From the NCBI GenBank assembly GCA_002737705.1, contig NSIM01000002.1, positions 1 to 64,000 of the forward strand: DNA of 64,000 nt. Reading direction: 5' to 3'. Source of the DNA: Flavobacteriales bacterium. Lineage in GTDB: Bacteria > Bacteroidota > Bacteroidia > NS11-12g > UBA955. The notes beneath the pieces were generated by a model. The model did no database searches, was not told the DNA's origin, and was given only the letters and a program-made list of their open reading frames with translations. Below are positions 21,649 to 43,907 of this stretch, one piece after another (position 1 is the first letter of the stretch; every line of letters starts with the position of its first letter). The translations under genes and the position numbers were made by a program.

Positions 21649-22851
21649 ATGAAAACAGCTGTATATGTAATCGATATTGTAAGAACGCCAGTAGGAAAAT
21701 TTGGAGGCATGTTGGCAAATACACGTCCAGATGACCTTGCGGCTCATGTTATCAAAGCCATTATGGAGCGAAATCCAAGTATCGATCCCACGGCTATCGA
21801 TGAAGTGATACTTGGCGCAGCAAACCAAGCCGGTGAAGACAATCGAAATGTTGCCAGAATGGCCACCTTGTTGGCCGGATTGCCCACAAGTATTCCTGGA
21901 TATACTGTAAACCGATTGTGTGCATCTGGTCTTCAAAGCATTATGAATGGCGCAATGTCCATCGCTTCAGGTCAATCCCATCTCATATTGGCGGGCGGAA
22001 CAGAAAGCATGACGCGTGCGCCTTTTGTAATGGCGAAAGCAGAAACCCCGTTTTCTAGATCACCAGAAATATACGACACCACCATAGGCTGGCGATTCAC
22101 AAACAAAACATTGTCTAACCTGTATCATCCCTATTCTATGGGTGAGACAGCCGAAAATGTAGCTGAACAATTTAAGATATCTCGTGAAGATCAAGACTTA
22201 TTTGCCTATCAAACCCAATTGAATTGGAAAAACGCACAGGATGCAGGGCGATTCTCACATGAAATTGTGGGTGTCCCCATCTCTCATAAAAAAAGAGAGT
22301 TGCTGGTGTTTGAAACGGACGAGCACCCCAGGCTGAGTGAGATCAACATATTGTCTGGGCTCGAAGCCGCCTTTCGTGAAGGGGGGACTGTTACAGCCGG
22401 AAACAGTTCTGGAATCAACGATGGTGCAGCCATTTGTATTTTGGCATCCGAAGAAATGGTAAACCAATTGGGGCTTAATCCCATGGCCCGCATTGCAGGA
22501 ATCGGGGCAGCCGGTGTCGACCCATCCATTATGGGCATGGGCCCTGTTCCAGCCACAAAAAAAGCGTTAAAAAATGCGGGTATTGGTGTCAAGGATCTAC
22601 ACGTAGCCGAACTGAATGAAGCCTTCGCCTCACAAGTTTTAGCCAGTATGATGGCTCTAGAAATAGACCGCAGTATTGTAAACCCAAATGGCGGCAGCAT
22701 TGCCATTGGACATCCATTGGGCGCGTCTGGGACAAGAATATCTGCCACCTTACTTCACCATATGAACCAAAACAAGCTATTGAAATATGGTTTGGCCACA
22801 ATGTGCGTCGGCGTCGGGCAAGGCTGTGCCATTGTGTACGAAAATATGTAG
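21649..22851 (+). CDS. Acetyl-CoA acyltransferase, 3-oxoadipyl-CoA thiolase type (PcaF/PaaJ-like)
   Basis: A thiolase of 400 aa. It cleaves 3-oxoacyl-CoA with CoA, or condenses two acyl-CoAs. The catalytic residues are visible: Cys91 in NRLCASGLQS, His355 in GHPLGASGTR and Cys386 in CVGVGQG. The segment ANQAGEDNRNVARMATLLAG (residues 58-77) is characteristic of the 3-oxoadipyl-CoA thiolases PcaF and PaaJ rather than plain AtoB/FadA. This suggests the last step of aromatic (phenylacetate or protocatechuate) breakdown. No other pathway gene is adjacent; a paaN gene lies 40 kb away. The substrate is an inference from family resemblance. Confidence 0.88.
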   Translation: MKTAVYVIDIVRTPVGKFGGMLANTRPDDLAAHVIKAIMERNPSIDPTAIDEVILGAANQAGEDNRNVARMATLLAGLPTSIPGYTVNRLCASGLQSIMNGAMSIASGQSHLILAGGTESMTRAPFVMAKAETPFSRSPEIYDTTIGWRFTNKTLSNLYHPYSMGETAENVAEQFKISREDQDLFAYQTQLNWKNAQDAGRFSHEIVGVPISHKKRELLVFETDEHPRLSEINILSGLEAAFREGGTVTAGNSSGINDGAAICILASEEMVNQLGLNPMARIAGIGAAGVDPSIMGMGPVPATKKALKNAGIGVKDLHVAELNEAFASQVLASMMALEIDRSIVNPNGGSIAIGHPLGASGTRISATLLHHMNQNKLLKYGLATMCVGVGQGCAIVYENM

Positions 22852-22852
22852 C

Positions 22853-23575
22853 ATGCGGTATAAAATTGAATTATCTTATATCGGAACCCCCTTTGGTGGC
22901 TGGCAAATTCAAACCAATGCTCCCAGTGTTCAAGAAACCCTACAAAAAGTTCTGGGTACGGTTTGCGATGAACCCATAGATCTTGTGGGATGTGGGAGAA
23001 CCGATTCGGGGGTTCATGCCTCACAGTTTTTTGCCCATTTCGAAACCGAGAACCCCATTCCAAGCAATATTCCCCACCGCGTAAACCGATTACTCCCCAA
23101 TGAAATTGCCGTTATTTCTTGCGAAATTTGTGAGCCAAGCTTCCACGCCAGATACAGTGCAATCCAACGAGAATACCAATACCATATCTGTTCACAAAAA
23201 AATCCATTTACAGCCAATACTTCTTGGTGGACTGCAAAAACTCCCAATATTGATAAGATGAATGAATGTGCAAACACCCTTCTTGGAGAGCATCCTTTCA
23301 CGGCTTTTTGCAAAGGAGAAATACCCAATGGAAATCCACTTTGTACAATTTTTAAAGCCGAATGGATTCGCACCGATACTGGATATACCTTCACCATTAT
23401 TTCAAATCGATTTTTACGAAATATGGTTCGTTCTTTGGTGGGTTTCTTACTTGAAGTTGGACTTGAGACAATGAGTAAAGAAGAATTTACGCGTGTGTTT
23501 ATGAAGGCAGAACGTGCAGAAAATGGACATTCTGTTCCTGCAGAAGGACTCTGTCTTAGTAGAGTTGTCTATTAA
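22853..23575 (+). CDS. truA: tRNA pseudouridine(38-40) synthase TruA
   Basis: Modifies uridines 38-40 in the tRNA anticodon stem. The protein (240 aa) begins MRYKIELSYIGTPFGGWQIQ. Its catalytic Asp51 lies in the signature GCGRTDSGVHA, and FLRNMVRSLVGFL is the conserved C-terminal helix. The ATG at 22853 lies one base after the thiolase stop (22849-22851) and gives the family N-terminus; a longer frame from 22787 would overlap the thiolase deeply. It probably forms a transcription unit with the thiolase. Its stop is one base from the convergent gene's stop. Confidence 0.96.
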   Translation: MRYKIELSYIGTPFGGWQIQTNAPSVQETLQKVLGTVCDEPIDLVGCGRTDSGVHASQFFAHFETENPIPSNIPHRVNRLLPNEIAVISCEICEPSFHARYSAIQREYQYHICSQKNPFTANTSWWTAKTPNIDKMNECANTLLGEHPFTAFCKGEIPNGNPLCTIFKAEWIRTDTGYTFTIISNRFLRNMVRSLVGFLLEVGLETMSKEEFTRVFMKAERAENGHSVPAEGLCLSRVVY

Positions 23576-23576
23576 A

Positions 23577-26500
23577 TTACTCTTCGAATCGCCGTAAAAA
23601 GCGATCTACTTGGCGATCTGTTGCTGGCCTTACAAAGAAATTGTCTGCTTTGATTTTGTCTGCAGTATTGGATAAAACTTGCTGCATATTTTGGTCTGAA
23701 CAATAGATATACGCAACTGTTTTGGTAAGATTGATATAGAGGTAATCATTGGCTCCCAAATCTAAATACATATACATATTCTGACCGCTTCGCTTATGCT
23801 CAAGCAACACAATCGCTTTCATGTCTTTATTGATGGGTTTGCCTGCAATGCTGGCTATAGAAATCAAATCATTGGAATACATTCCCCTGAGTTTACTGTC
23901 CCAACGAAACGTGGCATCACTGAGAACAAATTTGTATCCTGCTTCGTCTTTTCCTGTCAATTCTCCATTTTTCTCCACATTTGAAATCGCCTGACGGGCA
24001 TTTTTATCATTGTCCATCATTTCTCCCAAACACTGCTTAAAAAATGGGGTATTGATGGAGGTGGTATTTCCCCCATTGACTGCAATGAGTTCTACCAAGG
24101 CATTGCTATAATCAGGATGCATCGGAAAATCAAGCATCATGGCCAAATTGAAAACAAAAGAACTATCGCCGGCTTTTAGATCTGCAGTACCAGCATTTTT
24201 GAATTTAATATTGGCTGATTCAAGACCGAAATCTAGTGGCCCTTCCGCATGAATAGAATGATTTTTTTCATTAAATTGAATCCAGCTTCCTTTTAACCCC
24301 CCATGGAGTAAGCGTGATTCACTTCCAGCAAAAAAGCTTTCAGTTTTGTGGTCGTAATAAAAAATTCCTGTATCATTCGTAACATCATCATCAGAATAAC
24401 GGCGTTTCCAAGAATACATAAGTGGGTATACATAACTCGAATCGTTGGCCACAAACAATCCGACAAATTGTTTTTTATTGTCCTTATCACGCGGGTCATA
24501 GAGCGACAAAACAACATTTTTTGGGTCAACCCGGCTATTATAACGAAGCCAAACAGAAGGATAAATATTGTTAAACGTGTGCAAGGGTTTTACATACCCC
24601 GTAAAGCGAATGAGGGGTTCAGTGCTTTCGATTTGCGCAAATCCTTTGTATCCAATCTTGGTGTCAAGGGTAAACCCTTTTTCTTCGGAAATACGGCCAA
24701 TCCCTTCAACGCGTTGATTTTCATTTACAATAACACTATCCAACAGAAATTCTTGTCTACCCCCACGGCTGTTAACATACTGATAATAGCCCTTTCCTCT
24801 GATTTTGTTTTTTCCATAGACCTTAACGCGCAATTTATAAATTTCGTGGTACTTGTTTTCTTTACCCGCAAGCAATCGCGAACTATCCAAATGATCCATA
24901 TCTGCATTGGCTCGGATGGTAGCCTTGCCATCTTTTAAAAATAAACGAGAATCTGCGATGTCTATATAAGGAATCTCAGCAATTTTGAGGGTATAGTCTT
25001 CTAAACTGTAATCGGCTTTTCTTCCCTCATAACGCAAACCCCCTTGGGTTGGATTGGTACTTGAGAAAATCGGAGTTTGTGCACGAAGATTCGGACCCAC
25101 TTTGGCTTGAATGATCTTTTTGTCCATATCCCATTTATAGTCTGTGAGGTTTGTTTGATACATGTTATACGCAAAAGATGTCATAGAGCCAGAGTCGTTC
25201 TTTGTAAATAGTCCCATTCGTTTACTGAAATCCATGCTCGCATTGATATTGCTGGTTTCAAAAGCCATACGGGATGAATCGGCGGCATAAATAGATAGAT
25301 TTGCCTTCAGTGCACTGGTTTTCTTGGGAGAAAATACCATCTCTTGGCTACTGAATCTGGCCTGTTCCCATGCCAAAATACCATTCCCTTTCAGATGGGT
25401 TGGCGACTGGGTTAAGGTTCCTGTAAAATCATATCCCTTTGAAAAAACCTTGATTGGCGTGGCACCATTGCTGACATTAAATTGGTCTTGGTATGGGTTC
25501 CAAACCATTCCTGCGTTCAAGGCATGGACCTCTGGATATTTGGTGTTTTCGGTCAAATCATACCGATCAATTATGCCTTCTGCCTTTTTGGGCAAAAGCA
25601 ATATTTTTGAAAACTTACTATTGGATCCCTGGTATCCAAAACTTCCGTCGGTTCCATAAAAACCTTCCTCACTAAGATTCATGGTCATGTCTCCATTGCC
25701 TTTTCCTTTATACATGGCAAACCCTCCGGGTGGAGTGTGTTTGATAAATCCCAGAGAATAATCTTTCTGAATACTCACATAATGACGAAAATCAGGGAAA
25801 ATGCCATCAGAAATAAAATTGCCATCAAAATGCAATCCATCAATGGTAAAATTGTCCAAACTGTCTATTGTAAAAGGATCTACAACAAATTTAAATTTGT
25901 CTCCAGTATATGCTCCACCATGAATATGGGGTTTATTGTATAACACCTCGCTACCCTTATCACTCACGAAAATCGGATATTCAGGATAGTCTTTGTTTCC
26001 AGATTTGTTGTTCGGTTTGTCGATGTAAAGCGTCCCGCTCACATTTCTAAGTACCGACTTTATCGGAATCAAGCGTCGGCCTGTTGAGTCTGGAAAATAC
26101 ATTTGAAGTGAATCAACGCTCGAAAGAACAATGAAAAATTGGTCGTAATTAAACGTGTATTTATTGCCAAAAAAATCAAAACGCCCTGCCCGCAATTGAC
26201 CCCCAAATCGAAGATTTCGGTTCTTCAACAAAGTAACCTTTTGGTCTGTCGGCAATACGATTACATTTTGAGAATCTGAGAAAAAGAATTTAGAAACTCC
26301 TTCTAAATTCATTTCGTTACTCAATAAATTGAGACTGAAATTTGGACGTTTCCCTATGGTAGATGAAATTCGTATTACATCATAATCTCTCATTTTTTGG
26401 TGTGCTTGCAAATATTTAAAGGCTTTGGGAAGCAACGTAGCACTGTCTTTTTCTTGGTGATAATTGATATATCCCTGATCATGCAATTCTAAAAAAAGAA

Positions 26501-28088
26501 CCGTCAGGTATTCTTTTGGGGTATTTGAAAAAAAAGCATACTCGTCTAGAGAAAATTTAATTCGCTGTTCGGCTTTATAAAACTCCCTCATTTCATTTTT
26601 CCTCAATTGCAATTGTTTCAATTTTGCATCGGCCTTGATTTTGTCGGAAGGATTCTTTGAAAACAACAATTGTTTAATCTCATTTTCCATTGCTTGGGAA
26701 ATCTTATCTTCAGGCTGTCGGTTATAAAATGCAATCATCCCTTCAAGCGGATTCGATTGTAATGGTCCTTGAAGTCTTGCGAATAAAATTTCACGGTAAA
26801 AATCGTCGGAAGAAATACGGGCTTCCAATTCATTGTTTACATTGTCGAAATCAACAAAAGGATCCGTTATTTTCCATCGAACCTGCTGAACATCTATGCC
26901 CACCTTATGATAGCTATCGCTGAAAGGAACCCGCATCAAACCACTCTCTCCCCGATCTATAACAAGCTTGTTGTCTTTGAAAATAAAATTAACCTTCACG
27001 AAAGGATGGTAAATCATTGTATTGCTGTCGAGATACAAGGTGAATTCACTTTGCAAAGTGCCAGCGACTCCATCGGCTATTTTGAAGGATTTACTTTTCA
27101 GAGTAACCTTCTTCTTGCCTTTATAAAAAACATCAATCAGGGTAGGCTCCCCATTTGCTGTAGCCGTTGTTATGGAATGTCCTTGCATGGAAAACCCACC
27201 CCTAAAAAAGGACTCAGGACCCACTATCCCCTGAACCAAAAGTTCATTGTTGTATGAATTAAATTGGGGATAACCCGAATGCTTAACAAACATTGAATCT
27301 GAAGATGTACTTAATTTGTCGACGAACTTGCCCACGACAGGCCGATTAAAATAGCGGGAATAGTGCAAGATTGCAGAATCAACTGAATAGGTATTTTGTT
27401 CTAGTTCAAAGGTGTATTTCCCGAATGAAACCGAAACCGAATCGTCGGGTAAACAACGCGAAAAATCGGCAGTCCCATAATTTCCAATCCATTGTTTTTT
27501 TGCAGGCCGATAAATGGCTTTTGTTGATTTAATAAGCATTTTATCCAATAAACCCTGACAGGTTAAATTCACATTTCCAAAATGGATTTCTATCTCTCCA
27601 TTGTAAACAATATCAAAATCAAGGGTATCTATTGACCAAATGGCTGTGGGTGATTGATTGACAATTTTTTCTGAAAACAAATTTTTGGTTGTTTGCAAAA
27701 ATTCTAGGTATTCTTTATTGGAATTCCCCAACAGGGATTGGGTAATATTCTGCCATTGAAAAAGCACTTTGTCAGGCAATTTGTTTTTTAAAAAAGCAGA
27801 CACTGTAGACAATAATAATTCGAAATGGGGTTGCACCGCCATTTTCTCGACCAACATTTGATTGGCAATGTCAATAATAAATTTTTGTTGGGTTGGGGAA
27901 AACCTTCCCATCTGCCAATTTTCTTTGAAAATAGCAAAATCCTTACTTAATTGTTTGTCAGCCGGACGGTTTGCAAAGGATTCAAACTCAACAATAAAAG
28001 TTGAGGGCATTGGACTAAAACTTCCGCTCTGGGCAGACAGTTTTAGGGCTAAAAAAGTAAATATACAAAGCCAATACTTAAGAACCAT
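23577..28088 (-). CDS. Large exported protein of unknown function (1503 aa)
   Basis: Not recognised. The ATG at 28088 begins MVLKYWLCIFTFLALKLSAQ, a signal peptide ending in a typical A-Q cleavage site. The mature protein is about 1480 residues, rich in short beta-strand patterns (alternating hydrophobic with N, D, G, K), with few cysteines and no transmembrane helix beyond the signal. A helical stretch rich in K, Q and E near residues 470-510 may be a coiled-coil. No T9SS-type C-terminal domain is evident (it ends RQVDRFLRRFEE). The all-beta appearance would fit a periplasmic or surface scaffold; that is inference. It is transcribed alone, convergent with truA. Confidence 0.85.
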   Translation of the reverse strand: MVLKYWLCIFTFLALKLSAQSGSFSPMPSTFIVEFESFANRPADKQLSKDFAIFKENWQMGRFSPTQQKFIIDIANQMLVEKMAVQPHFELLLSTVSAFLKNKLPDKVLFQWQNITQSLLGNSNKEYLEFLQTTKNLFSEKIVNQSPTAIWSIDTLDFDIVYNGEIEIHFGNVNLTCQGLLDKMLIKSTKAIYRPAKKQWIGNYGTADFSRCLPDDSVSVSFGKYTFELEQNTYSVDSAILHYSRYFNRPVVGKFVDKLSTSSDSMFVKHSGYPQFNSYNNELLVQGIVGPESFFRGGFSMQGHSITTATANGEPTLIDVFYKGKKKVTLKSKSFKIADGVAGTLQSEFTLYLDSNTMIYHPFVKVNFIFKDNKLVIDRGESGLMRVPFSDSYHKVGIDVQQVRWKITDPFVDFDNVNNELEARISSDDFYREILFARLQGPLQSNPLEGMIAFYNRQPEDKISQAMENEIKQLLFSKNPSDKIKADAKLKQLQLRKNEMREFYKAEQRIKFSLDEYAFFSNTPKEYLTVLFLELHDQGYINYHQEKDSATLLPKAFKYLQAHQKMRDYDVIRISSTIGKRPNFSLNLLSNEMNLEGVSKFFFSDSQNVIVLPTDQKVTLLKNRNLRFGGQLRAGRFDFFGNKYTFNYDQFFIVLSSVDSLQMYFPDSTGRRLIPIKSVLRNVSGTLYIDKPNNKSGNKDYPEYPIFVSDKGSEVLYNKPHIHGGAYTGDKFKFVVDPFTIDSLDNFTIDGLHFDGNFISDGIFPDFRHYVSIQKDYSLGFIKHTPPGGFAMYKGKGNGDMTMNLSEEGFYGTDGSFGYQGSNSKFSKILLLPKKAEGIIDRYDLTENTKYPEVHALNAGMVWNPYQDQFNVSNGATPIKVFSKGYDFTGTLTQSPTHLKGNGILAWEQARFSSQEMVFSPKKTSALKANLSIYAADSSRMAFETSNINASMDFSKRMGLFTKNDSGSMTSFAYNMYQTNLTDYKWDMDKKIIQAKVGPNLRAQTPIFSSTNPTQGGLRYEGRKADYSLEDYTLKIAEIPYIDIADSRLFLKDGKATIRANADMDHLDSSRLLAGKENKYHEIYKLRVKVYGKNKIRGKGYYQYVNSRGGRQEFLLDSVIVNENQRVEGIGRISEEKGFTLDTKIGYKGFAQIESTEPLIRFTGYVKPLHTFNNIYPSVWLRYNSRVDPKNVVLSLYDPRDKDNKKQFVGLFVANDSSYVYPLMYSWKRRYSDDDVTNDTGIFYYDHKTESFFAGSESRLLHGGLKGSWIQFNEKNHSIHAEGPLDFGLESANIKFKNAGTADLKAGDSSFVFNLAMMLDFPMHPDYSNALVELIAVNGGNTTSINTPFFKQCLGEMMDNDKNARQAISNVEKNGELTGKDEAGYKFVLSDATFRWDSKLRGMYSNDLISIASIAGKPINKDMKAIVLLEHKRSGQNMYMYLDLGANDYLYINLTKTVAYIYCSDQNMQQVLSNTADKIKADNFFVRPATDRQVDRFLRRFEE

Positions 28089-28138: not shown

Positions 28139-28903
28139 TTAACGCATTGCTTTTACAATGTCGATAAAATCCCTGGCTCTTAGACTCGCACCACCAATTA
28201 AACCGCCATCGATATCGGGTTGCAAAAACAATGAAGTTGCATTCTCTGGCTTAACACTCCCCCCATAAAGTATGGGTATTAACGATGAAATTTCTTCTGT
28301 GTATTGATTGGCGATTAACTTACGGATATAGGCATGTATTTCTTGGGCTTGGTCGCTAGATGCTGACAAACCAGTGCCTATCGCCCAAATGGGTTCGTAT
28401 GCGATGATTACTTGTGCAAATTCTTTTCTATCCAAATGAAACAATCCCTGGACAATTTGTTCCTCAATTTCCCGAAAATGCCGCTTGTTTTGGCGTTGAT
28501 CTAAGGTTTCTCCAATACAAAATATGGGTTTTATACCAAGTCGAATGAGCGATTTAACCTTGTTTGCGCATATTTCATTGGTTTCTCCAAAATATTGACG
28601 GCGCTCACTATGGCCTACCAAACAATATTGGACCCCAATGGCTTGTAACATACTGGCCGATATTTCTCCCGTAAATGCACCTTGGTCTTCGCTGTGTGCA
28701 TTTTGGGCACCCACACACAAACCAGTTCCTTCCAGCAAGCGCACCGCTGAAGGCAAAGCCAAAAAATTGGGAATGAGTACCACTTTCCCTTCGCCCCTGT
28801 ATTCATCGCGAACAATGCCCCTGACCTCTGCAATTAACGCATGACTTTCATCCAATTTCTTATACATTTTCCAGTTGCCTGCAACAATTTTCTGCCTCTT
28901 CAT
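28139..28903 (-). CDS. tpiA: Triose-phosphate isomerase
   Basis: Glycolytic enzyme interconverting DHAP and glyceraldehyde 3-phosphate (254 aa). It begins MKRQKIVAGNWKM. Active-site residues are Asn10, Lys12, His98 in GHSERR and Glu170 in AYEPIWAIGTG; the phosphate loop includes ILYGGSVKPEN. An in-frame start at 28993 would add 30 residues unlike any TIM. The ATG at 28903 gives the family N-terminus. Confidence 0.97.
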   Translation of the reverse strand: MKRQKIVAGNWKMYKKLDESHALIAEVRGIVRDEYRGEGKVVLIPNFLALPSAVRLLEGTGLCVGAQNAHSEDQGAFTGEISASMLQAIGVQYCLVGHSERRQYFGETNEICANKVKSLIRLGIKPIFCIGETLDQRQNKRHFREIEEQIVQGLFHLDRKEFAQVIIAYEPIWAIGTGLSASSDQAQEIHAYIRKLIANQYTEEISSLIPILYGGSVKPENATSLFLQPDIDGGLIGGASLRARDFIDIVKAMR

Positions 28904-29127
28904 AATCTTTGCAAATAAACACAATCTACAAGCATTTTTATGCTTAAAATATGAACCCATGAAGATTGTGGAGAATCCGATTGTCATAGCCAATAAAAAA
29001 ATCGAGCTAAATGGATCCGTGTTGTTATTGTATTTTTGTCAAACCCACCTGTTGCACACCCATCGTATTCATGAGATCGGCTTTCACTATCCTACTCGAA
29101 ACGAGCTATTGTCTGGGCAATACCCAC
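28904..29127. other. Gap between tpiA and cmk
   Basis: 224 bases without an assigned gene. The plus strand has a TATTTTTG box at 29031-29038 and open reading through the region (28875-29138), giving a protein without family resemblance that begins inside tpiA antisense. No tRNA, hairpin terminator or full promoter is recognised. Confidence 0.5.
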
Positions 29128-29844
29128 TTATGAATTGACAGAATTCAAAGCATCATTTACCCATTTGAGGGCTATTTCCAATTGTTTTTCTTTGCTAAGG
29201 TCTGAATTGTCTAGAATACAATAATCGGATGTGCGTGACAAGGGACTGTGTTCCCTTGATTCATCGATGCTGTCTCTGTGTTCAAGATTTTTTCTCACTG
29301 TTTCCAAAGACACAGCATCTCCATTGGCAATGAGTTCCTCAAACCTTCTATTGGCCCTCACTGCAGAATTTGCAGTCATAAATATTTTTACTTCCGCCTG
29401 CGGGAAAACCACTGTCCCAATATCTCTTCCATCCATTACAACCCCTTTGTTCATTCCGATTTCTTGTTGAATGGCTACCAATTTATTGCGTACTGCTAGA
29501 ATTTTAGACACTTCACTCACTTTCGATGCCACCAAAAGTCCCCGAATCTCCGACTCAACCCCTTTGCCATTGAGTATAATTTCAGTTTGTTTCTGCTTAT
29601 TGATTGAACAGGACAATGTTACACCCTGCAAGGCATCCATCACGGCCGTTTCATTCAGAACATCTACCCCCATTCGCATCATATGCAAGGTAACGGCTCG
29701 ATACATTGCACCACTATCAATGAAAATATAGTCCAAATGTTTGGCGAGGGCTTTGGCTAGTGTACCCTTACCACAGCTACTATAACCGTCAATGGCAATG
29801 TTTATCTTATGTTGGCTCCGTCGGGTTGCTTTGTCTTGAACCAT
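29128..29844 (-). CDS. cmk: Cytidylate kinase
   Basis: Phosphorylates CMP and dCMP (238 aa). The P-loop is IDGYSSCGKGTLAKAL at about residues 18-33. DSGAMYRAVTL and VVMDGRDIGTVVFPQAEVKI are the NMP-binding signatures, and DSIDESREHSPL is the lid region. The first dozen residues (MVQDKATRRSQHK) are extra; the true start could be slightly later. Its neighbour is porQ, an arrangement seen in other T9SS-bearing Bacteroidota. Confidence 0.95.
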   Translation of the reverse strand: MVQDKATRRSQHKINIAIDGYSSCGKGTLAKALAKHLDYIFIDSGAMYRAVTLHMMRMGVDVLNETAVMDALQGVTLSCSINKQKQTEIILNGKGVESEIRGLLVASKVSEVSKILAVRNKLVAIQQEIGMNKGVVMDGRDIGTVVFPQAEVKIFMTANSAVRANRRFEELIANGDAVSLETVRKNLEHRDSIDESREHSPLSRTSDYCILDNSDLSKEKQLEIALKWVNDALNSVNS

Positions 29845-29892: not shown

Positions 29893-30972
29893 TCAAAGTT
29901 TCTTTCTAAATTGAAAAGGATTAAAAACAATCGACACCATATTGGAATTCTGGTTTGTGAAATAGGCAGCACTCGAATAGGTTATATCACATTTGACCAT
30001 TCTAAATTTTATACCCCATCCAAAACCGGAAGTGCCCCTATGATCTGCGGTAGCCATTTCCATCCTTCGTTGAAGATTGTAACCAAACAGCAATCCCATA
30101 TTCTGTCCGAGTGCCAATTCTGTTCCAAAGGCAAAATGTCTTGCCAATTTTTCTGTAAACCCTGCTTTCTTCGCAACCATTTGCTTGCCATTTAAATCAA
30201 TCTCGCCTGGCATTGTCAAATATTGGTTATAGGTTAAATCCCAACGCTGGAGGCTATGGGCAGTAATGTGAAAACGAAATGGCATGTGTTTGGGTTTAAA
30301 TGCGATAGCCGCTTGAATCGTAAAAGGCAAAGCCTCTCGGCCTACCCCTTGGTATGCTATAATTTGTGTTCCCATATTCTTACAAACAATACCAAAACTT
30401 AATCCAGAATCTACGCTAATATAGTGGGCGCCAAGGTTTACATATACTCCGTTTCCGATATACGGACCCAAAACACTGTATACCATGCCCAATTGCGAAC
30501 CCCAACGCCAGTGTTCGTTAATGTCCATCGAAACACCAATACCAATATTTGTTTCGTTGGCTGACACCTTCCCAGTGGGATTTCCCCCAGCGTCGTAAGC
30601 ATCCATGGTGCCATAGTCTATGTGTTGTGCAAATCCCTGAAAAATTGGAATTGAAAGGGCTTTGTTCTGTTTTTTATTTCTCAGCGTATCTCCGACTGTA
30701 AATCCAAAGCAAAAATTGGCTGTCAGCACACCAGGCAATATTGTTCCAACCCCCAATCCCACGTTGCGTTTATGAGAGGAATTTAACATGGCTGGATTAT
30801 TGGTTGTTTGCAAGACGTCAGCGGAAGATTGGGCAAGCAAGTATCCACTCCATGCCAATGCTTTGCTGTGCATGGGAATATTGAGAATTGAAAAAACACC
30901 ATTTCCCCCTGTTTGGGCAGACACAACAGAAATTGTTGCAAAAAAGACAAGCAAAAATCGACACTTGCGCAT
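29893..30972 (-). CDS. porQ: Type IX secretion system outer-membrane protein PorQ
   Basis: A predicted outer-membrane beta-barrel of 359 aa belonging to the PorQ/PorP-like group. In P. gingivalis PorQ works with PorU, PorV and PorZ in the surface attachment complex. A signal peptide (MRKCRFLLVFFATISVVSAQ) is followed by GGNGVFSILNIPMHSKALAW, the family's typical opening, and glycine-rich strands (FGYNLQRRMEM, GFGWGIKF). The ATG at 30972 is preferred over an upstream non-ATG start at 30996. Adjacency to cmk supports the call. Divergent from ribF with about 65 bases between them. Confidence 0.85.
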   Translation of the reverse strand: MRKCRFLLVFFATISVVSAQTGGNGVFSILNIPMHSKALAWSGYLLAQSSADVLQTTNNPAMLNSSHKRNVGLGVGTILPGVLTANFCFGFTVGDTLRNKKQNKALSIPIFQGFAQHIDYGTMDAYDAGGNPTGKVSANETNIGIGVSMDINEHWRWGSQLGMVYSVLGPYIGNGVYVNLGAHYISVDSGLSFGIVCKNMGTQIIAYQGVGREALPFTIQAAIAFKPKHMPFRFHITAHSLQRWDLTYNQYLTMPGEIDLNGKQMVAKKAGFTEKLARHFAFGTELALGQNMGLLFGYNLQRRMEMATADHRGTSGFGWGIKFRMVKCDITYSSAAYFTNQNSNMVSIVFNPFQFRKKL

Positions 30973-30978
30973 GGCCAA

Positions 30979-30986
30979 CAAAATTA
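30979..30986 (-). promoter_or_regulatory. Candidate -7 box (TAATTTTG) 6 bases before porQ start
   Basis: The minus strand reads TAATTTTG, a perfect TAnnTTTG, six bases before the ATG at 30972. There is no TTG at standard -33 spacing. It supports the shorter porQ start and predicts a leaderless or nearly leaderless mRNA. Confidence 0.45.
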
Positions 30987-31037
30987 GTTCAAGCAAAGCA
31001 ACATGTGATGCATATTTTCTTGAAATTTGCAGACGCT

Positions 31038-33676: not shown

Positions 33677-34388
33677 AAAAGAAATCCGGAGTTTCCTGGG
33701 ATCATTCATCGCCTATATCGTAATGGGGGTATTTCTGCTCATTACGGGACTGTTTATCTGGGTAATCGAGGGAACCAATGTGATGGATATTGGCCTGGCG
33801 AACATGCAGGTACTGTTTAATATCGCTCCCTATATATTAATCTTTCTGGTTTCTGCCATCACCATGCGAAGTCTAAGTGAAGAAAAACGATTGGGAACCA
33901 TAGAAATTCTGAGCACCCGACCGGTGAGTGATTTTTCGATTCTCATGGGAAAATATTTGGCAGCATTGGGACTCATTGTTTTTACTCTCTTGCCAACCCT
34001 TTTTTATTATTATACCATTTCAACACTAGCCGACCCACTCCAAGGAACAGATATTGGGGCTACTTGGTCATCGTATTTTGGGTTAATTTTGCTTGCAGCC
34101 AGTTATGCCAGCATAGGATTATTTGCCAGTGCTCTCAGCGACAATCAAATTGTTTCACTGGTTGTAAGCATGGTGCTGTGTTTTTTCTGGTATGGTATTT
34201 TGGGTTTGTTGGGCGATATCAAAGCACTGGATACCATTGGCAAAAGCCTGGGATGGTTTGGACTAGACTTTCATTACAAATCGATTAGTCGTGGGGTTTT
34301 TGACACACGTGATTTGTTGTATTTCTTGGGCTTCATAGCAAGTTTCATTGGGGCAAGTAAACTGGTATTTGAAAGCAGAAAATGGTAA
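33660..34388 (+). CDS. gldF: Gliding-associated ABC transporter permease GldF
   Basis: Membrane component of GldAFG (242 aa, about six transmembrane helices). It begins MWAVFKKEIRSFLGSFIAYI. The cytoplasmic segment SAITMRSLSEEKRLGTIEIL, then STRPVS, is typical of ABC-2 permeases and GldF. The first 17 bases lie within gldA, and its stop overlaps the start of gldG (TAATG). Tight packing implies one co-translated unit. Confidence 0.9.
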   Translation: MWAVFKKEIRSFLGSFIAYIVMGVFLLITGLFIWVIEGTNVMDIGLANMQVLFNIAPYILIFLVSAITMRSLSEEKRLGTIEILSTRPVSDFSILMGKYLAALGLIVFTLLPTLFYYYTISTLADPLQGTDIGATWSSYFGLILLAASYASIGLFASALSDNQIVSLVVSMVLCFFWYGILGLLGDIKALDTIGKSLGWFGLDFHYKSISRGVFDTRDLLYFLGFIASFIGASKLVFESRKW

Positions 34389-36154
34389 TGGATAATCATA
34401 TAAAACAACGGCAATCCATTTTCTCTTTCCTATTGGTGATGATCGGTGTACTATTGGTAAACGCCCTGGGTAGTATTTATTACAAGCGAATCGACCTGAG
34501 CTCGGAAAATCGCTATACATTGAGCGAAACCAGTGCCAAATTATGTACTTCCCTCAAAGAAAAATTGTATTTCCGTTTATACCTTGATGGTGAAATGTCG
34601 GCCCGATTTAAGAATCTCCGAAATGAAATTCGCGATATGGCCTATGAATTTAGAGAACAAAGCGGAAGAAAAATTGAAATTGAAATCATCAATCCATTTG
34701 CAGGAAAACCCATTTCTGAGGTGTCGGGATTGTTGAAAGATTTTAACGACCGCGGTTTACTCCCCCAAAGAGATATAGATGCTGAAAGCAACAACAGTAC
34801 TAGCATCAAAAATATCATTCCTGGAGCCGAATTGAGCTACGCGGGCAAAACAGTCACGGTAAACTTTTTTGAGTATGATGTGGCCTTGGATGCAGATGAA
34901 AACATCAAACGTGCCATGGACAATGTAGAATATGAAATTGCCAATGGATTGCGACAGTGCACACTCAAAAAACCCAAAAATATTGTAGTAGCCGATGGGT
35001 CGGGTGAGATGATCGATAGACGTGTGGAAGCCTTTGCCGCAGAATTATCGAAATACTACAACATCACATCCCTGAACCTCAATGTTTCAGATCCCGCCTG
35101 TGCGGAACCCTTTATCGACAAACTCAAGGCCCTTGAAAATACAGAAAATGCTGGTGAACTTCTACTTGCAAGTTTGCAAAATCGACTCAAAAACAACGAC
35201 CTTCTATTGGTTGTTAAACCCCAACAAGATTATACCCCATCGGAATTATACCTCATCGACCAATTTGCCCTAAACGGGGGAAAAGTAATTTGGATGATTG
35301 ACCCCGTAAATATTGAAATTGACAGTTTTGAAACAAGTGGCTCGATAATGGCATTCGATAGGCAATTAGAAAATATCACCGCATCCCTCTTCCATTATGG
35401 CGTCAAACTAGAATCTACACTGTTGATGGATGCCAATTGCAATAGCATTCCTATCCCAGTAGGCAATCGTCCAGAGATGATTGATTTTTATTATTTCCCT
35501 GTTTTTATGTCTGCCTCGTCTCCCCATATCATCAACAAAAATGTTGGACCCGTATGGACACAATTCCCCGCAACCCTTGTAGCAAAAAGCCGAAAAAAAA
35601 TGAACATTACTCCTTTGTTGTCGAGCAGCCGATATACCAAAACAATTCAGGCTCCTGCCACTGTCGATTTAGAAACGGTGTATATGCAATCTCGGGATGA
35701 CAAATTTAGAAGTGTCCTGCGGGGGGGCAGCAAACTCTCTGGCATACTCATGGAGGGAGAATTTCAATCGCCATTTGTTTACCAAAAACACTTTAGTGGA
35801 TTGCCTTTTTTGGCTTTGGGTACTTCGAAGATGATCGTGCTTTCTGATGGTGATATTATGCGAAATGGAATCAGTGGACGGGGGGGGATTTACCCAACCG
35901 GTTACGATCGTTTTAGCAAAATCACCTTTGCCAATCAGAAATTTTTACTCAATTGCATTGATTATTTAATTGATGACAATGGCTTAATCGAGATTCGTGC
36001 GAAAGAAAAAATACTGCGCTTGATGGATCCTGAAAAACTCCGACTGGAAAGAACCTTTTGGCAATGGTTTAATATGATCATCCCCATTGTTAGCATTTTG
36101 CTATTTGGCATCTGTAACAACCAGTTTAGAAAGTACAAATACCAAAACCCATAA
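34388..36154 (+). CDS. gldG: Gliding-associated ABC transporter component GldG
   Basis: Large membrane-anchored periplasmic component of GldAFG (588 aa from the ATG at 34388, which overlaps the gldF stop as TAATG; an ATG at 34382 is the alternative). There is an N-terminal transmembrane helix (FSFLLVMIGVLLVNALGSIY), then the periplasmic ABC-type-uncharacterised domain (RYTLSETSAKL, FEYDVALDADENIKRAMDNV, VVADGSGEMIDR, GGKVIWMIDPVNIEIDS). A C-terminal helix (FNMIIPIVSILLFGICN) closes it. It resembles GldG of Flavobacterium in layout. ruvA follows after five bases. Confidence 0.88.
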   Translation: MDNHIKQRQSIFSFLLVMIGVLLVNALGSIYYKRIDLSSENRYTLSETSAKLCTSLKEKLYFRLYLDGEMSARFKNLRNEIRDMAYEFREQSGRKIEIEIINPFAGKPISEVSGLLKDFNDRGLLPQRDIDAESNNSTSIKNIIPGAELSYAGKTVTVNFFEYDVALDADENIKRAMDNVEYEIANGLRQCTLKKPKNIVVADGSGEMIDRRVEAFAAELSKYYNITSLNLNVSDPACAEPFIDKLKALENTENAGELLLASLQNRLKNNDLLLVVKPQQDYTPSELYLIDQFALNGGKVIWMIDPVNIEIDSFETSGSIMAFDRQLENITASLFHYGVKLESTLLMDANCNSIPIPVGNRPEMIDFYYFPVFMSASSPHIINKNVGPVWTQFPATLVAKSRKKMNITPLLSSSRYTKTIQAPATVDLETVYMQSRDDKFRSVLRGGSKLSGILMEGEFQSPFVYQKHFSGLPFLALGTSKMIVLSDGDIMRNGISGRGGIYPTGYDRFSKITFANQKFLLNCIDYLIDDNGLIEIRAKEKILRLMDPEKLRLERTFWQWFNMIIPIVSILLFGICNNQFRKYKYQNP

Positions 36155-36159
36155 GACTT

Positions 36160-36762
36160 ATGTATAACTACATCGAAGGAACTCTCGAATCGCTAAGCCC
36201 TACCCATGCCGTAATTGGAAACCAAGGAATGGGATATATTGTCACCATTAGTCTAACAACTTACGAAAAAATCAAAGGCCTCAAAACCGTTCGACTATTT
36301 GTTGACTTATTGTTTAAGGTTGAGAACCAAAATCCGGTTTCTATGGCTTTGTATGGCTTTTGGGAACCCGATGAAAGACATATGTTTAGGATGTTGACCT
36401 CTGTTTCAGGGGTTGGAAATAATACCGCAATGCTTATGTTGTCGAGTTTGGATTCCGAAGAGGTGGCTTCTGCCATTATGAATGGAAATGTAGGATTGCT
36501 AAAAAGCATCAAAGGAATTGGCGAAAAAAGTGCCCAACGGATTGTTCTCGAATTACGAGACAAAATGAATGGTCGAAAAACTTCGGGTTTCTCATCAGGA
36601 ATAGCGGGTAACAGCGACAATTTTTCTGAAGCCTTAGCGGCACTAATCACATTGGGATATGCAAAGAATGGGGCCGAAAAAGCCTTGTTGTCGGTGAGCA
36701 AAACATTGGGTGGAACAGCGACAATCGAAGAATTGATAAAGAATTCACTAAAAATTTTGTAA
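36160..36762 (+). CDS. ruvA: Holliday junction branch-migration protein RuvA
   Basis: Binds four-way DNA junctions and loads the RuvB motor (200 aa). The N-terminal OB fold begins MYNYIEGTLESLSPTHAVI. Domain II has paired helix-hairpin-helix motifs (MLTSVSGVGNNTAMLMLSSL and LKSIKGIGEKSAQRIVLELR). Domain III, which contacts RuvB, is SEALAALITLGYAKNGAEKA. It is cotranscribed with gldAFG by spacing and followed by sprA; ruvA-sprA neighbourhoods are common in Bacteroidota. Confidence 0.97.
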   Translation: MYNYIEGTLESLSPTHAVIGNQGMGYIVTISLTTYEKIKGLKTVRLFVDLLFKVENQNPVSMALYGFWEPDERHMFRMLTSVSGVGNNTAMLMLSSLDSEEVASAIMNGNVGLLKSIKGIGEKSAQRIVLELRDKMNGRKTSGFSSGIAGNSDNFSEALAALITLGYAKNGAEKALLSVSKTLGGTATIEELIKNSLKIL

Positions 36763-36830
36763 CTTGCCACTTCTGCATTAATACAATAGCCTATTCGCCA
36801 ACTGCTACGCAACGATTAGAAGGATTTAGA

Positions 36831-39800
36831 ATGAAATTTATCGTAGACCAATTGCTACGCATAAAACCTATTCAACTCGGTTTTGCGCTGCTGCTGTATG
36901 TTGTTCACATACCTGTATCAGTATGGGCACAAACTGATACCCATAGATTACATTACAAAGTGGGTAAAGATGGGGGTAAAGGCAGCAAAATAGACCTGCA
37001 GAATCCCCTCAAAACAGAATGGCGTTATAATGCCCGAGAAAACAGGTATGAAGGATATCGACAAATCGGAACCTTACGCTACCCTACTGGTGAAATTATT
37101 TCGGTGACTGACTATTTTCAACAACAGGCAAAACAAATCAAGGAAGATTATTTCAGAACAAAAACCCAAAGTGCTTATTCCCTCAGTGGAAATAACAAAA
37201 GTGTAAGTGACTTAATCAAAGCCGAATTAAACAACCCAACCGTTTCGAAAATTTTTGGTGCGGGCGGAGTAGACTTCCAACTAAATGGCAGTGCTATGGT
37301 AAAATTGGGAGGCAATATTAATGTAAACCGCAACCCCAGTTTTTCGAAACGACAACAACGCTATTTCGTACCTGTTTTTGACCAGCAAATTCAAATTAGT
37401 GCCAACGGAAGTATTGGCGAATATGTAAAGTTGGGAATCAACTACGACACTGAGGCGGCATTTGAATTCGACAACCAAACCAATTTGGGATGGAAAGGAA
37501 AGCCCGATGGTATTTTAAAGGACATTCAGGTGGGCAATGTCAATCTCAATCTGCCCACCCAATTGATCAAACCCGCAAACAATTTGTTTGGATTTTCCAA
37601 TACAATGCAATTTGGAAAAACAACTGTTAAAACAGTTTTTTCTCAAAACAAAGGACAAAGTACCGAGACTGTATTAAAGGGAGGTGCGCAATTAAATGAG
37701 TTTAAAATCACCGCAGACAACTACGACCAAAACAAACATTTTTTTCTTTCCCAATTTTTTAGAGAGAATTTCAATGCCTCATTGCAAAATCTTCCCATCG
37801 TTGCAAGTGGTGTGATTGTGAATCGTGTAGAAGTTTGGGTAACCAATAAAAATGCCAATGTCGAAACGCCACGCGACATCCTTGCCTTCCAAGATTTGGG
37901 AGAATCAAAGCCTTATCGCACCTCATTGGGCGGATCAACGAACCCCGTTCCAGACAACAATTCGAATTCTCTATACAGTAAGATCATTGCCGACCCTGCC
38001 ATTCGCAGCATCGGGCAGGCCATTGACAAAGTCTATAATGCCATGCCAAATTTTGAACAAAGTGTTGATTTTGACATGTTGAACTACGCGAGACAGTTAA
38101 ACGAAAAAGAGTTCGCATTGAACGCCCAACTTGGCTATATATCACTCAATCAACCCCTGAACAATGATGAAATCCTGGCCGTCTCTTTTGAGTACACGTT
38201 CAATGGTGAAGCCTTCCAAGTGGGTGAATTTTCTCGAGACATCGCTCCGGGAAATCAACAATTATTGTTCCTGAAAATGTTAAAATCCAATACCATTAGA
38301 ACCCGATTGCCAATATGGAGGCTAATGATGAAAAATATTTATGCGCTCAATACCTATAGTCTTAGTTTGGAAGATTTTAAACTGAATGTTATCTATTCTG
38401 ATGACACAACCGGTGCTGATTTCAATTATTTACCCGTTGGGAATGCCAATGCCCCTGCTTTGGCAAATGGAAACCCTTTAATCCGGGTATTTGGATTAGA
38501 CAAGCTTAACAGACAGCAAGAAGGCAAACCCGATGGTATTTTCGATGCCATCGAGGGAATCACAGTAAATACCCAATTTGCACGCATCATTTTTCCTGTT
38601 ACCGAACCTTTTGGCACTTATCTCAGGACACAGTTTAATGGACGAAATGACCTAGGAGATTATTATTGTTTCGACGCATTGTATGACAGTACGAAATGGC
38701 TTGCCCAACAGGATGTGAAACACAATAAGTATTTTTTACAGGGCAGTTATAAAAGTAGCAATGGAACAGAATTGTTTTTGGGAACAACCAACCTGCAAAG
38801 AGGATCTGTTCGTGTTACCGCAAATGGAAGACCCCTTACTGAAGGAGCAGACTATGAAGTGGATTATGCACTTGGAAGAGTGCGTATAACCAACCAGGGA
38901 TTGTTGCAGGGCGGAGCCGAAATTCGGGCAAGTGCCGACGGTCAAAGCTTTTTTAATATCCAACAAAAAACATTATTGGGTGGACGACTGGAGCATAAAT
39001 ACAACCCCAGACTGCTCATGGGAGTCACTGCGTTGCACATGTATGAAAGGCCACTCACCACGAAGACAAACTTTAACGAAGAACCCCTGTTAAATTCGAT
39101 CATTGGTGCCGATTTTTTGTATAGTTCGAAATCTCGTTTCCTGACAAGAATGGTAGATAAATTGCCTTTTTTAGAAACAAAAGAAGTCTCAAACATTACT
39201 GCATATGGTGAATTTGCCCGTATCTTTCCGCACAATCACAAATCGCAGGGAGGCGAACGAGGCATTTCGAATCTGGAAGATTTTGAGAATGCCGAATTGT
39301 TAAACGATTTTAAAATGGTTTCAAATTGGGTGGTGGCTGCTGTGCCACAGAAACAACCCGACAAATTTCCAGACACCAAGAATTTGGATAAATTGACATG
39401 GCTCAACCACCACGCAAGCCTTAGCTTTTATACTATAGACCAACTTTTTTACCGCGATAACGACATGCCCGATAACATCAACAAACGGGTAGATGCCATA
39501 TTGAGCAATCCATTTATGCGCCAGGTAGACCAACGCGAAGTCTTCCCACAACGAAACTTTCCCCAAGGGACACCTACTATTTTGCCGACACTAGACTTGT
39601 TTTATCGGCCAAAAGTGAGGGGCATGTATAATTTTAATACGAATCCTTCACAAATTAACACAGATGGAAATTTGACAACACCTGAGTTGAGTTGGGCTGG
39701 GATAACCCGCAAGGTAGACCAAAACGATTTCGAAGCAGCAAATATTGACTATATTGAGATTTGGATGCTTGACCCGATGAGTGAAAATCCAAATCTAAAA

Positions 39801-42800
39801 GGAGACCTTTTATTGCATTTGGGAAATGTGAGTGAAGACATATTGCCCGACCGAAGGAAATCCTTTGAAAATGGCCTCGCTTCTATGGGATCGAGCAATA
39901 CTGATTTAGACACAACCCAATTTGCCATGGTACCCAATGCCCCCCAAATCAACTTTGCTTTTGACAACAACAATACAACCCTCAAATCACAAGATTTAGG
40001 ACTCGATGGTATGGATGATGTCGAAGAACGCCTGCATTTCGATTCTGTTTTCTTAAAACGTGTTAAATCGGAATTTGGCCAAGGTTCTAACTATTATCAA
40101 AATGCCACCAAAGACCCTTCCAACGACAACTTTATACATTACCTTGATGATGGCTATAATTCTTCGGATGCTGATATTGCAGGGCGCTATACACATTTTC
40201 AGGGATTACAGGGAAATTCTAACCCTGAGCAGTATACAGGAAAATATGCAGGCATGCCAAAATCTTCAACTTCAATGCCTTCAGATGAAGATGTTAACCG
40301 AGACTTTACCCTAAACCAAAGTGAAGACTACTATCAATACCGGATTAAAATCAATGCTGCCGATATGCAATTGGGGAAAAACTATGTTTCTGATATAGTA
40401 AAAAACACTGTGAAGATGCGCAACGGGAAAGACCGCCAAATAACCTGGTACCAGCTTAAAATTCCCATTCGAGAATTCGAAAAAGCTGTCGGAAACATTT
40501 CTGATTTTAAGAGCATTCGATTCATGCGCATGGTCATGACCAATTTTAATGATTCTGCCATACTGCGATTTGGCTATATTAATATGGTAAGGGCCGATTG
40601 GCGCCGCTATACAAATTCGTTAAAAACTCCAGGTATTGTTGTGCCAATCGACCCAAATGACGGAACCAAGTTTATTGTGAGTACTGTCAATATAGAAGAA
40701 AATAGCAAACGTCTACCCATTGCCTATGTATCTCCCCCGGGGATAGATCGGGTTCAGAACATGGCGAGTTTAGGCACTGTTTTAGAGAACGAACAAGCCC
40801 TTTCTGTTGAGGTTTGCGACTTAAATACAGGAGATGCCCGCGCGGCCTTCAAAACAACAACCTTTGATGCCCGCAATTACAAACGCATGCAACTGTTTGT
40901 TCATGCTGAAGAAAAAAATTCACTTCCTGTAAACGATGGCGAAGTTTCTGCATTTATCCGTTTTGGAACAGACCTTACATCCAACTATTATGAATATGAA
41001 ATTCCCTTGAAAATGACACGGGGATTTGTGAATATGAATTCTTCCAATGCAGATAAAACAATTTGGCCAGACGAAAACTTTATTGATATTCCGTTTGACT
41101 CATTCTATAACCTTAAAATTATTCGACAAAATGCTGCATGGCCGATGACTGCTCCCTATATCAAATTCATGGGCAAAGGAAAAATTACGGTTATGGGACT
41201 GCCCGATATTGGAAATTTGCGGGTGATGATGGTGGGTGTTAAAAACAATGCCAGCAGTCCAAAATGCTTCGAAGTGTGGTTTAACGAATTGCGTGTAAAA
41301 GAAATTGCCAATTCTGGTGGCTGGGCTTCCCTGGCGAATGTGCAAATGCAGTTGGCAGATTTTGGTCAACTTAATGTCGGTGGAACCATCCGAACCATTG
41401 GTTTTGGAGATGTAGACAAAAAACTCAATGACCGAAGTTTGAGTTCGAATTACAACTACGACATTGCATCCAATCTCGAGCTTGGAAAGTTCTTTGCGCA
41501 AAAAGCAGGCATTAGTATTCCAATGTATATCGGATACTCTGAAAGTTATATAAGGCCAAAATACAATCCCCTAAATCCTGACCTAGAGCTATCTCCTTTT
41601 CTTGCGCGAATTTCTGATGATGGCATTCGAAAGGCGATCCAAAAAGCGGCCGAAGAATTTAATTCCTTGTACAGCATCAACTTTAACAATGTCAGGGTAG
41701 CGAATGGAACAGGAAAGACTGCAAAACCCTGGTCGATCTCTAATTTTGTCTTGGGATATAGTTATCAAAACAACTACCGACGCAACCAACAAATCGAAGA
41801 GTACTTTGTAAAAACAACACAAGCAACCCTCGGCTATGTGTATGCCAAAAATATCCAATACATCCGTCCATTTAACAAAATACGCAGCAAAAACTTGACA
41901 CTTCTGCGTGATGTAAATTTTAATTTATTGCCATCAAACCTCAGTGCCCAAATGCAAGTAAACCGATTGTACAGCGAACAACAATCGAGAAATAACAACA
42001 AGTTTATTCAGGTTAATCCCCGAATGTTTGACAAAAATTTTGTGCTTTTGCGAAACTTTAATGTTTCTCTTCCTTTAGCCCAATCAATCAATATTACCTA
42101 TTCTGCCAATATTTCTTCACGTATCCAGGAACCCTATGGCAGACTAGACGAAAAATTAAAAATTGATTCTGTACGCAAAGAATTTCTTACTTTGGGCAGA
42201 ATGACAAAATTTTACCAAAGCATGAATGCCAATTACAACCTCCCATTTTCAAAGATAAAATGGATACGTTGGATGACTGGCACCGTAACCTATGCCTCGA
42301 GTTACGAATGGCTCCAAGCGCCCCCTGTGTTTGAAAGCTTGGGTAACCGGATTCAAAATGGACAAGACATTAATTTTACTGGGCAAATGAATTTCACCCA
42401 ATTGTATCAGCAAATTCGTTGGTTGCGCGATCTTGAAAAACCCAAACAATCCAAATCCGTTAAAAAAGAAGGAGATGAAGCTACCACCTTTAACAATGCC
42501 CTAGAAAAAGGTGCGGAAACAAAAAAAGCAAACCCTGTGAAAATATTCGTAGGAAATATATTAAGTATGCTTAAGAATGCCAGCTTCAGTTATCAATACA
42601 AGGAAAATACCGAATTGCCTGGATTTGCATACAAACCCGATTATTTTGGAACAAACTTTAAACATATGCAACCCGGAATGGGTTTTGTTTTCGGATTACA
42701 GGATCCCAATTTACGTTACAAACTAGCCAGTGATGGCGCGTTGAAAAATGATGCCAGACAATCGAATTTCTACCGCAAAAACACCACAGACAATGGTACA

Positions 42801-43895: not shown

Positions 43896-43907
43896 AATGA
43901 CCGGCCC

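Follow-up and report, generated by a model that had tools for sequence, protein, structure and literature searches.

An exported 1503-residue protein of a Flavobacteriales bacterium as a tentative candidate for a periplasmic lipid carrier

There is continuing debate over how phospholipids are delivered to the outer membrane, and few candidates are known in Bacteroidota. The closest described systems are the Lpt proteins, with the OstA-type beta-taco groove of LptA, LptC and the N-terminal part of LptD, and the TamB/AsmA-like proteins, of which TamB is anchored in the inner membrane according to the accessible part of PMC12045153.

We analyzed a 64,000-nucleotide stretch of contig NSIM01000002.1 from a Flavobacteriales bacterium (the window), in which an earlier note, made from the sequence alone, had pointed to an open reading frame (ORF) at 23577-28088 as the second-largest protein. 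The coordinates and the rank were exact, and the strand, which had not been stated, is minus. This gene, here called gene X, is an intact 1503-codon ORF with its ATG start at the 28088 end; only a 2354-residue ORF (SprA) is longer in the window, and the plus strand across 23577-28088 contains many stops. We tentatively propose that its product, X, is a periplasmic lipid-carrying groove protein of the LptA/TamB kind that would use an exported winged helix as a docking module. We hold this reading with somewhat less than even confidence, since support extends to part of the fold and does not reach the function. Gene X and the predicted parts of its product are as follows, with the evidence for each in brackets.

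23577..28088, minus strand: gene X, 1503 codons, the whole ORF with stop (ORF and homologues)
28032..28088, minus strand: signal peptide, residues 1-19, cleavage predicted before Gln20 (sequence, Gln20 conservation, Q-rule)
27669..28004, minus strand: helical domain, residues ~29-140 (six helices in the model; i+3/i+4 coevolution)
26724..27641, minus strand: beta section 1, residues ~150-455, first half groove-like as in LptA/LptC/LptD (model and coevolution)
26589..26717, minus strand: K/Q/E-rich helical insert, residues ~458-500, lineage-specific (19 of 205 members; helix in the model)
26388..26555, minus strand: putative winged-helix domain, residues ~512-567 (profile matches; Gly539 in 203 of 205 members)
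24159..26363, minus strand: beta section 2, residues ~576-1310, antiparallel meander (coevolution; model unusable)
23949..24131, minus strand: helical segment, residues ~1320-1380 (i+4 coevolution; low-confidence model)
23580..23936, minus strand: C-terminal domain, residues ~1385-1503, strands then helices (model and coevolution, low confidence)

Like the Lpt proteins, X is exported, and its low-confidence model at residues ~140-300 superposes on their open antiparallel grooves. It differs from them in being far longer, in having neither detected sequence homology nor a visible membrane anchor, and in carrying a helical domain before the groove and a winged helix within the beta part. The likeness to TamB/AsmA-like proteins lies in size and in the long antiparallel meander indicated by coevolution. 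Where TamB has an anchor, however, the only hydrophobic segment of X is a cleavable signal peptide; X also shows no detected sequence homology to TamB and is encoded in a genome that has a separate TamB. Among groove-type lipid carriers, X would be a variant set apart by two uncommon traits, the missing membrane anchor and the exported mid-chain winged helix.

Export of X is well supported by its sequence. The N-terminus is hydrophobic and runs into KLSA followed by Q, the predicted cleavage falling between the two. Gln20 is conserved in 186 of 205 distinct family members (8 have gaps and 11 other residues), and the residue preceding it is Ala, Ser or Gly in 188. These counts come from a family alignment of 211 rows, translated stop to stop rather than from chosen starts, in which X is present twice (once as a stop-to-stop frame) beside five further near-duplicate pairs; rows were merged at 99% identity into the 205 distinct members. 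According to the accessible parts of PMC5837995 and PMC10653852, most signal peptidase I substrates of Bacteroidetes expose Gln (the Q-rule). No second hydrophobic segment was found in X, where the best 19-residue hydropathy window past residue 40 reaches 0.88, and such windows exceed 1.6 past residue 60 in 6 of 209 family rows. The sole Cys near the start, residue 8, is preceded by Leu, not by the Gly, Ala or Ser of the lipobox rule, and a lipobox is therefore unlikely. Gln20 conservation and the single hydrophobic stretch at the N-terminus thus bear out the signal peptide and export described in the earlier note. Its statement that X has no sorting tail for the type IX secretion system (T9SS) also stood, since no Por_Secre_tail match was obtained at E-values (E) up to 1 with a library that finds such a tail in the PorZ of the window.

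X was rightly called unrecognised. No Pfam or NCBIfam family matched at cut-off, the only signals being noise (VP4_2 at E 0.32; pseudoazurin at E 0.021, far below the cut-off), and a PDB sequence search with X alone returned zero matches at E up to 1. A profile of the family (A2) reached two PDB chains, 8ugc (E 0.16) and 3cta (E 0.23); the former was set aside as an internally repetitive chain that matched as four overlapping copies. A strong match to a characterised family, against which the earlier note had set its reading, came from none of the Pfam, NCBIfam and PDB sequence searches. We found no title or abstract opening describing such a protein in literature from which subscription papers and preprints mostly fell outside the scope.

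Fold of the beta sections and the winged helix

The likeness to Lpt proteins was observed with a structural model of the N-terminal part. The AlphaFold input comprised 11 sequences, whose identity to X was 73-92% across residues 20-640 and 80-94% across residues 500-1503. The better-modelled stretches of the N-terminal part were the six helices (~29-140) and the first strands. The fold search used this N-terminal model only, against 'pdb' and 'pdb_via', and the Lpt resemblance depends on it. In Foldseek, the top match was LptC 6mjp_C, with E 0.031, probability 0.99 and a template-modelling (TM) score of 0.46 on the target. In a second structural comparison, rows 1-13 were all LptA, LptC or LptD, with Z 8.9 to 6.3; the alignments begin between model residues 79 and 131 and stop between 239 and 286, which corresponds to X residues ~140-300. 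Rows 14 and 15 (Z 6.1 and 5.9) match the helical insert. The LptD matches span chain residues 73-247, which we take to be mostly the N-terminal groove and not the main barrel. The expectation in the earlier note that a long beta-groove would suggest lipid transport thus fared well for beta section 1, on a low-confidence model, and for the rest coevolution is consistent with an antiparallel meander.

Coevolution was computed by a mean-field, windowed method on the 211 rows, with an effective number of 99 at 62% identity. Residues 24-145 gave maxima at i+3 (0.58) and i+4 (0.68). By contrast, residues 150-455, 576-900 and 900-1310 had maxima at i+1 and i+2 and fell to at most 0.25 by i+4. Further on, residues 1320-1380 gave 0.52 at i+4, and residues 1385-1500 were highest at i+2 (0.81). 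Across the three beta sections, 2.2, 3.6 and 3.1% of centres had antiparallel hairpin lines scoring above 1.0. The corresponding figures were 0.21, 0.27 and 0.10% far off the diagonal and 0.8, 1.5 and 1.3% for parallel lines in the same beta sections, and the helical section, as a control, gave 0.8%. The hairpin test was devised after two cruder coevolution tests had separated poorly. The median spacing of hairpin peaks was 16 residues. Five hairpin centres fell in the stretch from residue 150 to 257, and each lay within 2 residues of a model turn (p 0.009 relative to random positions). Coevolution supports an antiparallel meander in the beta sections, though not uniformly and less clearly in residues 900-1310.

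Several results weigh against a groove of the Lpt or TamB kind. The AlphaFold models, built with only 11 close sequences, have poor predicted local distance difference test (pLDDT) scores, 46.3 for residues 20-640 and 31.8 for residues 500-1503, and the Lpt rows of the beta-taco fold (Z 8.9-6.3) were obtained on a pLDDT 46.3 model and for residues ~140-300 only. None of the 249 Foldseek matches had E below 0.001, ranks 2-10 were unrelated proteins, and the LptD chains (ranks 11, 16, 27 and 48) and LptG/LptF (ranks 24 and 35) each had a probability of at most 0.10. The second structural tool warns that Z below 8 may reflect a common arrangement, and two rows exceed 8. Comparison of the X family by hhalign gave a probability of 0.1% against 20 OstA_2 proteins and at best 0.4% against 26 partial TamB proteins, which were frames of 490-1009 residues cut by locus ends. 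Pfam scans of 28 members found no OstA, LptC, TamB or AsmA at E up to 1, and the TamB model PF04357 had no match in X or in the 28 members. Within the coevolution data, mean hairpin and parallel scores were nearly equal (0.079/0.059, 0.093/0.093 and 0.106/0.081), the difference lying in the tails only. For residues 900-1310, 5-cell lines above 1 numbered 533 antiparallel and 551 parallel, and above 1.4, 190 and 141; the top-pair lines of residues 950-1310 were equal (42 antiparallel, 44 parallel). When the turn match was compared with rigid shifts, p was only 0.047.

Residues ~512-567 look like a winged-helix fold, to judge from profile matches and a low-confidence model that agrees with helices followed by a wing. 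When 28 members were scanned whole against Pfam, one TFIIE_alpha match (9.7e-5) appeared, together with weaker single-member matches to HTH_Crp_2, Fe_dep_repress, GntR and IclR models and to unrelated families; with residues 436-580 cut out, TFIIE_alpha reached 8.7e-6 in 1 of 28 members. Five long members scanned for extra domains gave a sole match, one weak Fe_dep_repress, which is of winged-helix type. A sub-profile of the winged-helix region found seven PDB chains at E up to 10, with matching over residues ~500-560. The best was riboflavin kinase 3cta (E 0.0052), which has a winged helix at its N-terminus, followed by transcription factor E (1q1h; 0.011), Lmo0651 (0.077), IclR (0.17), PadR (0.18), MarR (0.87) and Fur6 (1.4). 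Going by their titles, four of these seven chains are transcription factors. In contrast, sub-profiles of the helical and C-terminal domains gave no such winged-helix matches.

Of the 205 members, 203 retain Gly539 at the predicted wing start, and coevolution places a hairpin centre at residue 547. The likeness of X to known winged helices (3cta, TFE 1q1h, IclR, PadR and MarR) consists of the profile match and the Gly before the predicted wing, but here the domain is part of an exported protein and its average net charge is not positive. The mean net charge of residues 505-570 is -0.8 (standard deviation 2.2), reaching at least +3 in 17 of 205 members. Given this charge and the exported location, DNA binding by the winged helix appears unlikely.

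The helical-domain sub-profile found 8ugc again in the PDB (whole-sequence E 1.2e-6, no single stretch passing) and otherwise nothing below 0.1, and the C-terminal sub-profile had no PDB match under 0.2. The body had been described as apparently all-beta, which agrees with its long beta sections but not with residues ~29-140 and 1320-1380, which look helical, or with the putative winged helix at ~512-567. A K/Q/E-rich helical patch noted near residue 490 is present, but as an insert in only 19 of 205 members, where it precedes the winged helix.

Distribution and gene order

X is a single-copy gene in its own genome, and X matches were found in 58 of 58 genomes drawn from its own order (its own genome counted). 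In the class, 128 of 149 genomes had X, as did 324 of 395 in a larger draw, leaving 71 of 395 without it. At the level of the phylum, X was present in 10 of 198 genomes drawn under a completeness limit and in 14 of 395 drawn with no such limit, and every match fell within the same class; the genomes listed in these draws are very clean ones of few families and a minority of all. The class and phylum draws thus sample differently: many families of the class carry X almost universally, and others lack it. Outside the phylum, coverage consisted of a scan of genome contigs for close relatives and a profile scan of viral contigs, the latter (A2) giving 69 pattern-matching stretches and no relatives. 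The Bacteroidota specificity suggested in the earlier note is not established by these two scans, although the phylum-draw matches all fall in one class.

The 11 close loci belong to metagenome-assembled genomes titled Bacteroidota, Bacteroidetes or Flavobacteriales and, in one case, Chryseobacterium gleum (locus L006). The last title looks wrong, because this locus carries an X that is 78% identical, in the gene order of the window. Two other loci had unusual forms of the gene: L085 (5199-14554, genome G083) contains two tandem copies of X on one strand, reflecting duplication or a paired complex, and L362 (4609-9227, genome G138) has X spread across three reading frames, reflecting a decayed gene or assembly errors.

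In the window, the genes around gene X are the following.

28139..28993, minus strand: tpiA (Pfam TIM, E 3.5e-91), 50 bases upstream of gene X
22787..23575, plus strand: truA, convergent with gene X across a 1-base gap
29128-29844: cmk, beyond tpiA on the upstream side of gene X

Gene X had been said to stand alone beside truA. Although truA does adjoin it, the two are convergent, and gene X is not alone: since tpiA lies 50 bases away on the same strand, gene X and tpiA likely share one transcript. A 367-residue ORF without Pfam match lies beyond tpiA and cmk (29893-30996, minus strand), and its position beside cmk is kept in several relatives of the same family. Elsewhere in the window, GldG, ruvA, SprA (2354 residues) and PorZ follow one another at 34382-46178 on the plus strand as a gliding/T9SS cluster.

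Of 20 distant loci (12.9-20 kb), 16 have prmA immediately before X and 9 have plsY immediately after it, and the recurrent neighbours form the order folP, DUF1599, BT_3928, tpiA, prmA, X, plsY, clpS. Locus L080 has this order nearly whole, with one large unassigned ORF between plsY and clpS. We then took non-redundant loci whose flanks measured 500 bases or more and recorded the nearest recognised gene within 600 bases, the recognisable gene types being those of the first 20 loci and the window only. Exact duplicates were left out, as were loci in which X was split into several pieces or had a frame below 3800 bases, and related genomes were counted separately. Upstream (n=161), we found prmA on the same strand in 83 loci, tpiA on the same strand in 33, prmA on the opposite strand in 1 and other cases in 44, so that 116 of 161 loci had prmA or tpiA upstream on the X strand. 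Downstream (n=194), plsY on the same strand accounted for 87, truA for 17 on the opposite strand and 1 on the same strand, and other cases for 89. It counts against the link between X and phospholipid synthesis that plsY is next in under half of the loci and is not next in the window.

Among the X-less loci that were read, one has tpiA-prmA-clpS, one prmA-clpS and one prmA-plsY. X was therefore lost from, or inserted into, a stable gene order. No divergent X was found after prmA in 17 X-less loci, one of which ends 281 bases past prmA, and the sole ORF longer than 1300 residues in these loci is a DUF5112/DUF5113 histidine kinase of 1487 residues in L118. An apparent PrmA-X fusion, a 1763-residue frame in L273, was rejected, as the extra N-terminus is prmA read out of frame and X has its own ATG, which overlaps the stop codon of prmA in the sequence ATGA. 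This rejection refers to L273, and the other long frame has 1747 residues (L352). Large ORFs forming one related cluster occur near X or plsY in L079 (12580-17988), L080 (809-7132) and L363 (10082-13999), with sizes of 1803 and 2108 residues, plus one of 1306 residues cut by the locus end.

Proposed function and alternative readings

We read X as a periplasmic lipid carrier because it is a long exported antiparallel beta protein with an Lpt-like first part in a tpiA/plsY context; tpiA and plsY encode enzymes around dihydroxyacetone phosphate and glycerol-3-phosphate. X would be exported by Sec and signal peptidase I, as Gln20 and the published rule suggest. Its two long antiparallel meanders may then make up a hydrophobic groove in which lipid acyl chains are protected as they pass from the inner membrane to the outer one, a shape that is partly supported for residues ~140-300 and would have to extend to residue 1310. 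At ~16 residues per strand, ~65 strands spaced by 4.8 angstrom would measure ~30 nm, possibly enough for the periplasm. The N-terminal helical domain could serve as a docking domain, standing in for the inner-membrane anchor of TamB or LptC, and the winged helix, having no net positive charge, may bind a protein partner rather than DNA. The most likely cargo would be a glycerophospholipid, because plsY, a phospholipid synthesis gene, often comes next after X.

In its own genome X is no replacement for TamB, since this genome has a separate TamB (a 1493-residue frame) in addition to a contig-edge OstA_2 match. Among 30 relatives, the source of the TamB and OstA_2 proteins used in the hhalign comparison, TamB was matched in 27 genomes and OstA_2 in 25.

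Of the alternatives, the best placed, though in our view unlikely, is that X serves the assembly of outer-membrane or surface proteins, either as an assembly factor or as a platform resembling a chaperone; its helical domain and winged helix would bind machinery while the beta body guides client strands, as proposed for TamB in protein assembly. X does have two modules of protein-binding type, and the accessible parts of PMC12611786 and PMC12578637 report unusual outer-membrane protein machinery in Bacteroidota. SprA was present in 143 of 149 class-draw genomes: 127 had both X and SprA, 1 had X only, 16 had SprA only and 5 had neither (Fisher p 0.0002, uncorrected for shared ancestry). However, the 16 genomes with SprA and without X mean that a strict dependence of X on the T9SS, for which the earlier note had proposed a phylogenetic profile, is not supported. 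Moreover, no outer-membrane assembly gene was found among the conserved neighbours, and no homology to a known assembly factor in the Pfam and NCBIfam scans. In the 20 distant loci, T9SS genes did not recur directly next to X.

Next, and likewise improbable, X could be a bridge specific to lipopolysaccharide (LPS) or another glycolipid, acting in parallel or in partnership with Lpt, rather than a phospholipid carrier. The structural likeness is specifically to LptA, LptC and LptD, and the same window encodes PorZ, an anionic LPS delivery protein according to NCBIfam. This reading is weakened by the separate OstA-like gene that genomes with X retain (the 25 of 30 relatives above), by conserved neighbours that are not LPS genes and by the lack of sequence homology to OstA-like proteins. 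Least probable is a structural envelope or surface protein, an outer-membrane barrel or stacked beta domains without lipid movement: an antiparallel meander would fit barrels and other beta folds too, and beta section 2 has no usable model, but the structural matches of section 1 are open grooves, the C-terminal end is predicted to be helical instead of a strand, and there is no sorting tail. The scaffold role suggested in the earlier note received no support here.

Returning to the lipid-carrier reading, a further-reaching version, which we consider possible but doubtful, is that X represents a separate class of periplasm-spanning lipid bridge, exported whole rather than anchored, with a mid-chain winged helix as a docking clamp. 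It would be encoded in one operon with tpiA and often plsY, and would be used by much of the class while being absent from several well-sequenced families.

An exported winged helix would be unusual in itself. If the proposal is true, X, a large protein with a groove-like fold and a fixed position next to plsY in many genomes, would be a directly testable missing phospholipid carrier that nearly all genomes of many families in the class encode, yet that Pfam and NCBIfam models fail to recognise.

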